The notes under the pieces were generated by a model. The model saw only the letters and a program-made list of their open reading frames with translations. It did no database searches and was not told where the DNA came from. The translations under genes were made by a program, and so were the position numbers. Below are positions 58,443 to 63,134 of a stretch of DNA of 64,000 nucleotides, in pieces (positions within the stretch are counted from its first letter, which is position 1; the number at the start of each line of letters is the position of its first letter). This DNA comes from Hyphomicrobiales bacterium (GTDB lineage: Bacteria > Pseudomonadota > Alphaproteobacteria > Rhizobiales > Xanthobacteraceae), in assembly GCA_017305555.1 (NCBI GenBank), contig JAFKKM010000023.1:1-64000 (forward strand), read 5' to 3'.

Positions 58443-59204
58443 ATGGAACCTACCGACCAGACCACACATTTCGGCTTCCGCGACGTCGCGCTGGACGACA
58501 AGCAGTCGCTGGTGAACGACGTGTTCCGCAGCGTCGCGTCGCGTTACGACCTGATGAACGACCTGATGTCGGGCGGGATGCATCGCGTCTGGAAGGACGT
58601 CATGATCAACGCGCTGAACCCGCCGCGCAACGACGCGCCGTTTGCGCTGCTCGATGTCGCCGGCGGCACCGGCGACATCTCCTTTCGCGCGGCGAAGGCC
58701 TCCGGCTACGGCTTCCACGCCACCGTCTGCGACATCAACGGCGACATGCTGGCGGTCGGCCGCGAACGCGCGGCGAAGCAGATGCTCGACGACCGGGTGT
58801 CGTTCGTCGAAGGCAATGCCGAGGCGCTGGCGTTCCCGGATCGCTCCTTCGACGCCTACACCATCGCTTTCGGCATCCGCAACGTGCCGCGCATCGATCT
58901 TGCGTTGCGCGAGGCCTGGCGCGTGCTCAAGCCCGGCAGCCGCTTCCTGTGCCTCGAATTTTCCACTGTGGACGTGCCCGGCCTCGACCGGCTCTATGAG
59001 CTGTTCTCGTTCAGGGTGATCCCGCCGCTCGGCCGCGCCGTCACCGGCGACGCCGAATCCTATCAGTATCTCGTCGAATCGATCCGCAAGTTTCCGAGGC
59101 CCGCCGCCTTCGCCGACATGATCCGCGACGCCGGCTTCGCGCGCGTCACCTGGCAGCCGCTGTCCGGCGGCATCGTGGCACTGCATTCGGGCTGGCGCTT
59201 GTGA
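58443..59204 (+). CDS. ubiE: Demethylmenaquinone/ubiquinone C-methyltransferase
   Basis: A 253-residue SAM-dependent methyltransferase: [20 protein letters not shown] then HRVWKDVMI, motif [39 protein letters not shown] and GIRNVPRI. It methylates the ubiquinone ring precursor. GGAGAG before ATG 58443 decides the start. It overlaps ubiB by four bases. Confidence 0.97.
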
Positions 59205-60769
59205 TCTCCGCACTCTCGCATGTCGCGCGGCTGACACGCGCCGCTTACGTGTTCGCGCGTGAAGGCGTGTTCGGAACCGTCGATCCGGCCTTGGTGCCGG
59301 CGCCGGGTCAGATTTTGCTGCGCACCGCACGGCTGATCGAACGGCGCGGCGCGAAATCCGGCCCACGCCTGTCGCGCGCATTGACCCGGCTCGGCCCCGC
59401 TTACCTGAAACTCGGACAATTCCTCGCCACGCGGCCCGACGTCGTCGGCGTTGCGCTCGCGCGCGATCTCGAAAGCCTGCAAGACCGCCTGCCGCCTTTC
59501 CCGCAAGCGGAGTCGGAAAAAGTCGTCGCCGCATCGCTGGAACGCCCTGTGGCGCAGGCGTTCGCGACATTCGGTCCGGCGGTTGCCGCCGCCTCCATCG
59601 CGCAAGTGCATCGCGGCGAGGTGGAGCGCGATGGCGAGCGCCGGCAGGTTGCGGTGAAAGTGTTGCGACCCAACGTCGGCACGCGCTTCCGCCGCGATCT
59701 TGCCGACTTCCAGTTTGTCGCCGAGCGCGCGGAGCGCTATTCGGCGGAAGCGCGGCGGCTGCGGCTGATCGAGATCATCAACACCATGTCGCGCTCGGTC
59801 GCGATGGAGATGGACCTGCGGCTGGAAGCGGCCGCGCTCTCCGAGATGGCGGAGAATACCCGCGACGATCCCGACTTCCGCGTGCCGACGGTGGACTGGG
59901 ACCGCACCACCAACAACGTGCTGACGATGGAGTGGATCGACGGCATCGCGCTGAACGACCATGCGCGGCTGGCGTCGTCGCAGGTCGATCTGCCGGATCT
60001 CGGCCGCAAGGTGATCCAGAGTTTTCTGCGCCACGCGCTGCGCGACGGCTTCTTCCACGCCGACATGCATCCCGGCAACCTGTTCCTCGACGACTCGGGA
60101 CGCTTGGTCGCGGTGGACTTCGGCATCATGGGCCGGCTCGGGCTGAAGGAGCGGCGCTTTCTCGCGGAGATTCTGCTCGGCTTCATCACACGCGACTATC
60201 GCCGCGTTGCCGAGGTGCATTTCGAGGCCGGCTATGTGCCGGCACATCATTCGGTGGAGAATTTCGCGCAAGCGATCCGCGCCATCGGCGAGCCGATCCA
60301 CAACCGCACCGCCGAAGAAATCTCCATGGCGAAGCTGTTGTCTCTGCTACTGGAGGTGACGGCGCTGTTCGACATGCAGACGCGGCCTGAATTGATCCTG
60401 TTGCAGAAAACCATGGTGGTGGTGGAAGGGGTGGCCCGCAGCTTCGACCCCAAGCTCGACATCTGGACCGTGGCCGACCCGGTGGTGCGCCAATGGATCG
60501 AGCGCAACCTCGGACCCGTAGGTCGCATCCAGGGCGCGATGGCCGGTGCCGGCGAACTCGGCAAGGCGATGAGCAGCCTCCCCACCATCGCCTCGCGCTC
60601 GATCCGGGTGCTGGAACAGCTCGAGGTGATGGTGCGCGACGGGCTGGTGCTGTCGCCGGACACCATCGCCGCGCTCGGCCGGGTCCGCGCCCGCCAGAAC
60701 CGCTGGCGAACCATTGCCGTCTGGGTGATCGCTATCACCTTTGTCAGTATTTTGTGGCTGGTGCGCTAG
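59201..60769 (+). CDS. ubiB: UbiB/ABC1-family protein kinase-like ATPase of ubiquinone synthesis
   Basis: A 522-residue protein: KxGQ motif [20 protein letters not shown], Ala-rich loop [25 protein letters not shown] and [10 protein letters not shown] of the ABC1 kinase core, and a C-terminal TM segment ([18 protein letters not shown]). It supports ubiquinone synthesis in the inner membrane. The start is GTG 59201, which overlaps the ubiE stop (GTGA). Confidence 0.96.
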
Positions 60770-60779
60770 TCCATTCTGA

Positions 60780-60824
60780 TTGCATCGCCCAATTACGAAT
60801 GATAGCATTGCTATCATTTTTGAC
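60780..60824 (+). promoter_or_regulatory. 21-bp palindromic FitA-like operator over the coaBC promoter
   Basis: AATGATAGCA (60798-60807), a single T, and TGCTATCATT (60809-60818) form a perfect palindrome. The core half-sites TGATAGCA and TGCTATCA match what I recall of the FitAB operator of Neisseria gonorrhoeae, although spaced differently. A possible promoter is TTGCAT (60780-60785) and TAGCAT (60803-60808), 17 bases apart, so the operator would cover the -10 box. The coaBC product itself carries a FitA-type DNA-binding domain. Confidence 0.8.
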
Positions 60825-60836
60825 ATGGAAGCTGCC

Positions 60837-62267
60837 ATGGCCAGCCTGACCATTCGCAAGCTCGACGACGCCATCAAAGCCGAACTCCGCTTGCGTGCAG
60901 CGCAGCATGGACGCTCCGTCGAAGATGAGGTGCGCAACATTTTGCGCGACGCGGCCAGCGCCCGAACATCAGCGGCCGACCATCCATATCGCACCGCAGC
61001 ATCGCAAGAGCCTGCGCGTTCAAGCCAGAATATCGGAAATTTACGAGCGACTTTGATTATCGGCGGCGGAATCGCGGCCTATAAGGCACTCGACCTGATC
61101 CGACGCCTCAAGGACAACGGTTTCATCGTCCGCTGTGTGCTGACAAATGCTGCGCAGCAATTCGTCACCCCGCTGGCCGCCAGCGCGCTGTCGAACCAGC
61201 GCTGCTACACCGACCTGTTCGATTCCGCGAGTGAGTTCGATGCTGGCCACATTCGTCTGGCGCGGGACTGCGACTTGATCGTAGTGGCCCCCGCCACCGC
61301 CGATTTGATGGCAAAGATGGCACAAGGCCATGCCGACGACCTCGCCACCGCCATCCTGCTGGCCACCGACCGGCCCGTGCTGCTCGCACCTGCGATGAAC
61401 CCCCTGATGTGGGGCAACGCCGCCACCCGGCGCAATGTCGCGCAATTGCAGCGGGACGGCATCCGCATGATCGGCCCCAACAGCGGCACCATGGCGGAGG
61501 CCGGCGAAGCCGGCGTCGGCCGCATGTCGGAGCCGTTGGAGATCGCCGCACGGGCGCTGGAGGTAGTTCGGCCGCCGCACGCCCGGCCGCTCGCCGGCAA
61601 GCGCATCCTGATTACCGCCGGGCCGACCCACGAGCCGATCGACCCGGTGCGCTACATCGCCAACCGCTCCTCCGGCAAGCAGGGCTTTGCCATCGCCGCC
61701 GCCGCCCGCGAGGCCGGTGCGGAGGTCACGCTCGTCACCGGCCCAGTCGGACTCGGCGATCCGGCCGGCGTCAACGTCAAGCGCGTCGAAAGCGCGCGCG
61801 ACATGCTGGCCGAGGTTGAGACCGCGCTGCCCGCCGATGTCGTGATCTTCGCCGCGGCGGTGGCGGACTGGCGCGTCGCCAATCAGGGCGAGCAGAAGAT
61901 CAAGAAGACTGCGAGCGGATTTCCGCAACTCGATCTCGTCGAAAACCCCGACATCCTCGCCACCATCGCGCATCGCACCGACGGGCGGCCGCCGCTGGTG
62001 ATCGGCTTCGCGGCGGAAACCGAGCACCTGCTCGACAACGCCCGTTCGAAACTCGCGCGAAAAGGCTGCGACTGGATCGTCGCCAACGACGTCTCGCCCG
62101 CAACCGGCATCATGGGCGGCGACCGCAACACCGTGCATCTCATCAGCAAGGATGACGGCGCGGTGGACGGCGTCCGCATCGACTCATGGCCGGCGATGGG
62201 CAAGGACGAGGTCGCAACGCATCTCATCGAACAGATCGCCGCCACGTTACAGAAGCACCCATCATGA
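60837..62267 (+). CDS. coaBC: FitA-type antitoxin domain fused to bifunctional CoaBC
   Basis: A 476-residue protein. Residues 1-39 ([37 protein letters not shown]) are a FitA-like ribbon-helix-helix DNA-binding domain. A polar linker (40-68) joins it to CoaC (69-about 250; [19 protein letters not shown], His in [19 protein letters not shown]), then CoaB (about 254-476; [38 protein letters not shown]). It decarboxylates and ligates in CoA synthesis. The Cys of the E. coli ACGxxGxGRM loop is not seen ([11 protein letters not shown], residues 220-230). ATG 60837 follows GGAAG by five bases; ATG 60825 is possible. It is the third gene after ubiE-ubiB and overlaps dut by four bases. The fusion has no PIN-domain toxin partner nearby. 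Confidence 0.9.
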
Positions 62268-62737
62268 CCGTTTCACCGCAAACATCCGTGACCGTCGAAT
62301 TCCTGCAACTGCCGCACGGGCGCGGCCTGCCGCCGCCGGCCTATCAGACCGAACATGCCGCCGGCATGGACCTCGTCGCCGCGGTTCCCGAAGACGCGCC
62401 GATGGTGCTTGCGCCCGGCGCCTACGGCATGATCCCGACCGGGCTCGTCATCGCGCTGCCGCCCGGCTTCGAGGCGCAGGTGCGGCCGCGCTCCGGCCTC
62501 GCCGCCAAGTTCGGCATCACCGCGCTCAATTCGCCCGGCACCATCGACGCCGACTATCGCGGCGAGATCAACGTGCTGCTGATCAACCACGGCCGCGAGT
62601 CCTTTACGATCAAGCGCGGCGAGCGCATCGCGCAGATGATCGTGGCGCCGGTGACGCACGCAACGCTGGTTCCCGTCGACGGCGAACTCTCCGCCACCGC
62701 CCGCGGCACCGGCGGCTTCGGCTCGACCGGCCGTTGA
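62264..62737 (+). CDS. dut: dUTP diphosphatase
   Basis: A 157-residue trimeric dUTPase with all five motifs: [48 protein letters not shown] and [11 protein letters not shown]. It hydrolyses dUTP to dUMP, preventing uracil in DNA and supplying thymidylate synthesis. Its ATG overlaps the coaBC stop (ATGA), so the two are translationally coupled. Confidence 0.97.
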
Positions 62738-63134
62738 TGCAATCGGCCTGTGACTGAATAGAATCGCCACGAATACTGAGCACTCCCTCTCCCGCTTGCG
62801 GGGGAGGGTTGGGGTGGGGGAACTCCACACAAAAAGCGCCCCCTCTCTGTCTCTCCCCCGCAAGCGGGGGAGAGGACCACGATCGCGAGCGCTGACGCCT
62901 GCATTTTTTCCGCCCGGGACTCCCGTTCACGGTCTGGACTCTGTTCGCGCGAGTCCGGTTGGGGGATATTGAGAGCGATTCGCGCGCGGTGCTGGTGGGC
63001 CGCGCCGTGGCTCAGAGTCTGTTTCAACTTCGCTGAAACAGACTCCTCGCTTATCTTTTTGATTGAGCATGATGTTGTCCGAAAACCGGTTTCCACTTTT
63101 CGGGATCATGCTCTAAGCGGTTTTGGGGCGAACG
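62738..63134. repeat. Gap with family D repeat, 11-bp hairpin and 50-base palindrome
   Basis: Three elements fill this gap. (1) 62784-62875: inverted CCCTCTCCCGCTTGCGGGGG and CTCCCCCGCAAGCGGGGGAG. (2) 63016-63044: perfect hairpin AGTCTGTTTCA / TGAAACAGACT with a 7-base loop. (3) 63065-63113: GAGCATGAT ... ATCATGCTC surrounding GTTGTCCGAAAACCGGTTTC, a common rhizobial palindrome. No gene is credible here. Confidence 0.75.

Follow-up and report, generated by a model that had tools for sequence, protein, structure and literature searches.

The palindrome that precedes coaBC in the 64,000-nucleotide stretch of DNA analysed here (hereafter the window) is in all likelihood the operator of a ribbon-helix-helix (RHH) domain fused to the CoaBC enzyme itself, both having come from a captured fitA-fitB toxin-antitoxin module, with the fused protein probably repressing its own promoter together with dut. 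CoaBC carries out an essential step of coenzyme A (CoA) synthesis, and to our knowledge no DNA-binding form of this enzyme has been described.

The coaBC reading frame (60837–62267, + strand) opens with ATG 60837 and encodes 476 residues, in which an N-terminal RHH domain is followed by a complete bifunctional CoaBC (TIGR00521, 385 bits). The domain (60840–60956, + strand) belongs to the FitA-like subfamily PF22513, scoring 63–67 bits against a cut-off of 27, and its nearest RHH protein by sequence among solved structures is Neisseria gonorrhoeae FitA (2h1o, 2bsq); the two structures that score above FitA are repeat proteins, matched through the low-complexity linker. The fold predicted for residues 1–73, which has the two helices in place and a strand that is unformed in the monomer model, is nearest to DNA-bound FitA, the best matches being the FitA chains of 2bsq (1.3–1.4 Å over 42–43 columns, 42–43% identity) with E-values that are weak (0.1) because the chain is short. 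Between the RHH domain and CoaC lies a linker (60957–61043, + strand), and across 110 fused proteins the mean pairwise identity amounts to 0.73 for the RHH domain and to 0.77 and 0.74 for the enzyme parts, compared with 0.13 for this unconserved linker. Six residues of the domain are invariant in these proteins, namely R7 (110/110), R20, S27, E29, E31, and R33. At locus L176, near position 2001 on the coaBC side (genome G231), the RHH reading frame stops after 53 residues, and there RHH and CoaBC appear to be split by a frameshift or stop, either real or an assembly error.

The palindrome itself, AATGATAGCA-T-TGCTATCATT, occupies 60798–60818, spanning 21 bp with two 10-bp arms that are 100% complementary and 1 nt between them. 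It ends 18 bases before ATG 60837 and begins 29 bp past the ubiB stop codon, which confirms the position and the perfect symmetry given for it in the initial annotation. No second odd palindrome with 9-bp or longer arms exists in the window, 20 mononucleotide shuffles of which yielded 0–1 palindromes with 10-bp arms, and the 21-mer is single in the 5.17-Mb genome with 3 mismatches allowed. Two boxes set 9 bp apart make up this core operator, TGATAGCA at 60800–60807 on the + strand and TGCTATCA at 60809–60816 (that is, TGATAGCA on the − strand), and both fit the consensus TGATNNCA derived from relatives. A further box, TGATTGCA, stands alone on the + strand at 60777–60784, 23 bp upstream of the first core box, and its partner at 60786–60793 is degenerate; compared with the two-pair layout of relatives described below, the window thus has two pairs of which the upstream one has been reduced to a single leftover half. 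The palindrome had also been said to overlap a plausible −10 box, which holds insofar as the TATCAT inside it resembles the consensus and goes no further, for a promoter scan found no + strand promoter at the palindrome and returned a minus-strand match alone, produced by its symmetry.

The fused protein was searched in 199 genomes of the family and the coaBC loci were retrieved, a locus being taken as fused when the alignment begins at the RHH domain (110 loci) and as unfused when it begins at CoaC (20 loci). With the upstream sequences placed side by side, the conserved unit proved to be an 8-bp box, TGATNNCA, near-palindromic by itself and present mostly as TGATTGCA, TGATAGCA, or TGATATCA, with neighboring boxes exactly 9 bp off. 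When a box pair is counted as two such boxes with a total of at most one mismatch, a pair is located within 150 bp upstream in 93 of the 110 fused loci, where 0.06 would be expected from shuffles, an expectation that takes no account of shared ancestry and is partly covered in this respect by the tree-based and second-clade tests given below. The pair is perfect in 73 fused loci, and among the unfused loci one was found in 1/20 within 400 bp. Two main layouts prevail: 33 loci have three consecutive boxes, and 26 have a pair of pairs in which 13–14 bp separate the start of the second box from that of the third. The boxes of a pair are often inverted as in the window and also occur as direct repeats (37 FF and 10 RR among 163 pairs), which makes the palindrome one of the forms taken by a tandem array. 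The strict palindrome was accordingly discarded as the conserved element, since congeners are imperfectly palindromic and yet keep the boxes (L005, AATGATAGCATTGATATCATT; L006, AATGATATCAATGATATCATT; L007, AATGATATCATTGATATCATT). A sigma70-like match spans the box pair in 41 of the 93 loci, often with TTGATT within a box as the −35 element, and since prediction gives no clear promoter for the window, the idea of repression through promoter overlap rests on these relatives.

Seventeen of the 110 fused loci have no good pair within 150 bp. They include degenerate arrays (for example TGAAAGCATTGCTTTCA in L059), arrays located farther upstream, 165–290 bp from the start codon (L020, L056, and L094), and two fused loci, L047 and L057, with no box pair in the 400 bp upstream. 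In L020 and L056, GC-rich inverted-repeat elements of the CCCGGCC...GGCCGGG type are situated between the array and the coaBC start. Boxes that have decayed or been displaced in L047, L057, L020, and L056 would be expected if the RHH domain and the boxes were a fossil of a captured module with no regulatory role, the domain merely aiding the assembly or stability of CoaBC, and in most bacteria coaBC does function without an RHH domain; however, residues 2–9, the predicted DNA-binding strand, are highly conserved (0.80, with R7 kept throughout) and the boxes have been retained in the great majority of fused loci despite large divergence, and we therefore regard such a fossil as improbable.

A wider regulon was considered and set aside, because among the matches listed the perfect pairs from 198 genomes fall mainly at coaBC or fitA genes. 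No other promoter recurrently carries a perfect pair among the listed matches that were inspected, and the minority of one-mismatch matches inspected in the window's own genome contains no noteworthy target gene. In genus g26, a second perfect pair occurs near the 3′ end of mutM (L175:2001-2017, L176:5690-5706, and L191:2001-2017); in L175 this pair separates the convergent ends of two genes, a protease-like ORF and mutM, rather than marking a promoter. The sequence TGATAACATTGTTATCA at L180:2001-2017, identical in genome G106, separates a gene for a TetR-like regulator from a divergently oriented one for an enoyl-CoA hydratase-like protein, and is probably the site of a separate regulator rather than a FitA box.

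The association between boxes and domain was examined on a rooted tree set in which one box-pair rule was applied to every row. A box pair is present in 38/41 fused, 4/6 intact-module, 1/2 toxin-stump, and 1/28 domain-less loci, and in 4 independent comparisons on well supported branches the boxes go with the domain in 3.8 on average and oppose it in about 0, although a sign test cannot reach significance with four comparisons. Scanning of named genomes supplied a second clade, distant from the family and comprising Mesorhizobium, Phyllobacterium, Zhengella, and relatives, in which each of the 12 fused loci has a box pair no farther than 150 bp upstream (0.015 expected). No pair occurs in the 400 bp upstream of coaBC at any of 38 named domain-less loci (Microvirga, Methylobacterium, Rhizobium, Ensifer, Bosea, and others). 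Confinement of the fusion to one family is thereby rejected, fused CoaBC having been seen in Mesorhizobium, Phyllobacterium, and Zhengella; a thinly sampled class-wide search gave no fused CoaBC outside the family among the matches listed. The co-occurrence of palindrome and RHH fusion in relatives that had been proposed as a check is thus found when the palindrome is read as a box pair (93/110 against 1/28 in the family, and 12/12 against 0/38 in the second clade).

The boxes are also found where the antitoxin stands by itself. Of 45 free-standing FitA genes, most of them adjoining a PIN toxin gene, 34 carry one or more perfect boxes no more than 100 bp away (1.7 expected), and in several of them a 12-bp gap separates two boxes. 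The half-sites of the Neisseria FitAB operator likewise have a 12-bp gap between them, whereas the boxes of the window are 9 bp apart. Since the box type is shared with free-standing FitA genes, cross-talk is possible in species with both, and this lends something to the idea that another, unlinked regulator, for instance a second FitA-like protein, binds the site and that the fused RHH domain has a different role. Against this stand the box at coaBC, which tracks the domain across species, and the genome of the window, where CoaBC has the only full FitA-like RHH and the one other PF22513 match is partial (29.5 bits) and belongs to an Arc-like protein; we give an unlinked regulator a very slight chance. 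The initial annotation's proposal that the fused RHH domain recognizes this site is accordingly favored by the co-occurrence, by the box shared with FitA genes, and by the lack of a second full FitA-like RHH in this genome, and what changes is the recognized element, which is the 9-bp-spaced box and not the strict palindrome.

A palindrome 29 bp past a stop codon could alternatively be an intrinsic terminator of the ubiE-ubiB transcript, its RNA forming a 10-bp hairpin followed by U residues, and this structure, U run included, is indeed obtained when the RNA of the window is folded (z −1.97 for a 71-nt stretch). Many of the relatives' pairs, however, are the direct repeats counted above, which are unable to fold in this manner, and a T run is found in only 17/93 loci, so that the hairpin with its T run, possible in the window, is not conserved in most relatives. 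Moreover, presence of the pair tracks the RHH domain and not ubiB, given that relatives with ubiB upstream but no domain have no pair, and the identical box type precedes fitA genes elsewhere. We consider a terminator very unlikely, and the operator of the fused domain remains our preferred reading.

The origin of such a fusion can be followed at the junction between ubiB (59201–60769, + strand; TIGR01982), the upstream neighbor that marks it, and coaBC. In L116 the operator boxes are accompanied at the junction by a complete fitA, tail included, and a complete fitB (PIN, 45 bits), and fitA and fitB overlap each other and the coaBC start. The intact order ubiB-fitA-fitB-coaBC is also found in L199, L202, L209, L241, L248, and L371, the last from Rhizobiaceae. 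In L118 and L188, the fitB behind fitA has lost its interior, which leaves the first and last residues of the PIN protein joined, and in the remaining relatives with RHH the domain runs straight into CoaBC. The window belongs with the latter: no PIN toxin gene adjoins the RHH domain, which continues into CoaBC, and the window protein has no toxin-binding C-terminal tail, residues 42–68 forming the linker of 0.13 identity and the tail being found only in free-standing FitA proteins. As in FitAB, boxes for the RHH lie in the promoter region of its gene. Co-occurrence of box and domain, presence of the box at FitA genes, graded junctions, and conservation of the domain together argue for an antitoxin captured by CoaBC with its operator, and for the fusion the most fitting account is that capture took in both after toxin loss, an origin absent from the initial annotation. 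In the CoaBC trees, fused, intact, and other states are interleaved with modest support and the number of fusions is not fixed by them.

Some junctions deserve mention on their own account. In L116, L199, L202, L209, L241, and L371, an intact fitA-fitB lies in one apparent operon with the essential coaBC, and a toxin gene placed in this way can hardly be removed by large deletions without harm to coaBC. In Mesorhizobium sp. J18 (L352:2456-3147), the same junction has a FitA-like antitoxin ORF with a different PIN-like toxin ORF (LVVDTSVLIAILNKE...), which suggests that the junction is a recurrent insertion place.

The scenario proposed from these comparisons starts with a fitA-fitB module that would have inserted between ubiB and coaBC, after which the toxin gene would have been deleted, and finally the DNA-binding part of the antitoxin would have been joined in frame to coaBC with loss of the toxin-binding tail. 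Each 8-bp box would be held by one RHH dimer, boxes 9 bp apart being occupied side by side. In this way the fused CoaBC would repress its own promoter, with the overlapping dut, and set its own level. In FitAB, a type II toxin-antitoxin system of the VapBC kind, the toxin makes no contact with the DNA and stabilises the complex by which antitoxin dimers are held on the operator (PMC3920265). The RHH subfamily (PF22513) and the box type before the gene are common to FitAB and the fused CoaBC, and in both the boxes would be read by RHH dimers that a partner holds together; the window has neither the toxin nor the toxin-binding tail, and its RHH is part of a metabolic enzyme. Mycobacterial CoaBC, for which Mycobacterium smegmatis is an example, forms a dodecamer with a CoaC core and is regulated by CoA thioesters (PMC7794376); a CoaBC dodecamer might take over the toxin's part as a scaffold and keep RHH dimers together on the DNA. 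DNA binding, the one-dimer-per-box arrangement, repression, the dodecamer tether, and a response to FMN, substrates, or CoA thioesters are all inferred from sequence comparison.

Regarding the genes around coaBC, ubiE and ubiB lie upstream, and control of coaBC independent of the ubiE-ubiB transcript is plausible. Downstream, dut (62264–62737, + strand; NF001862/TIGR00576) overlaps coaBC by ATGA and is probably co-transcribed, so that shared control, as had been expected for dut, is likely. Control of the downstream kinase, which had been raised as a possibility, is not supported; that gene begins some 400 bp past the end of dut, with repeat-rich DNA in between. At 62780–62880, between dut and the next gene, the window has an element rich in inverted repeats, made up of CCCTCTCCCGCTTGCGGGGGAGGG and a near-inverted copy, which resembles a dispersed repeat.

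A precedent among enzymes that act as repressors is PutA, an RHH-bearing flavoenzyme, trifunctional in proline utilization, that represses its own operon (PMC5293562). CoaBC resembles it in having an N-terminal RHH on a flavoenzyme and matching operators before its own gene, autogenous repression being known in PutA and proposed for CoaBC. CoaBC is nevertheless an unrelated enzyme of another pathway, its RHH is of the FitA-antitoxin type and would have originated through toxin-antitoxin capture, and it has no known switching signal; nor is it a member of the PutA family, as Pfam and NCBIfam find only CoaBC domains in the enzyme part and no proline or P5C dehydrogenase domain. Antitoxins exapted as transcription factors have been reviewed, and these are separate regulators, mostly of the Xre type (PMC8987985). 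Like them, the fused domain is an antitoxin DNA-binding domain without its toxin and with a proposed role in host gene control, but it lies covalently within the enzyme whose gene follows, and stages of its decay survive in relatives. With ordinary CoaBC the fused protein shares the two catalytic domains (TIGR00521), the ordinary form having no DNA-binding domain. A search confined to open-access literature found no paper that links CoaBC, under this name or that of the decarboxylase, to RHH, antitoxins, or Bradyrhizobium, and none on a DNA-binding CoaBC. PutA-like enzyme-repressors and antitoxins that became regulators are known separately, and here they appear combined in CoA synthesis.

A broader hypothesis, which we put forward only tentatively and consider rather doubtful as a whole, is that the junction repeatedly received FitA-type modules, that the antitoxin joined CoaBC independently in at least two rhizobial clades, and that the dodecamer tethers the domains while the ligand state of the enzyme (substrate, FMN, CoA thioesters) gates repression of its own operon; if true, this would amount to a direct switch for CoA status made from a selfish module. 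The candidate operator is short and simple and can be assayed immediately. Control of CoaBC by a captured antitoxin appears to exist in Bradyrhizobium, Rhodopseudomonas, Afipia, Mesorhizobium, Phyllobacterium, and relatives, a common soil- and plant-associated group, and since its living members still show the module whole, the module with its toxin cut to a stump, and the fusion, the route that may have led from a selfish module to a host regulator is testable step by step.
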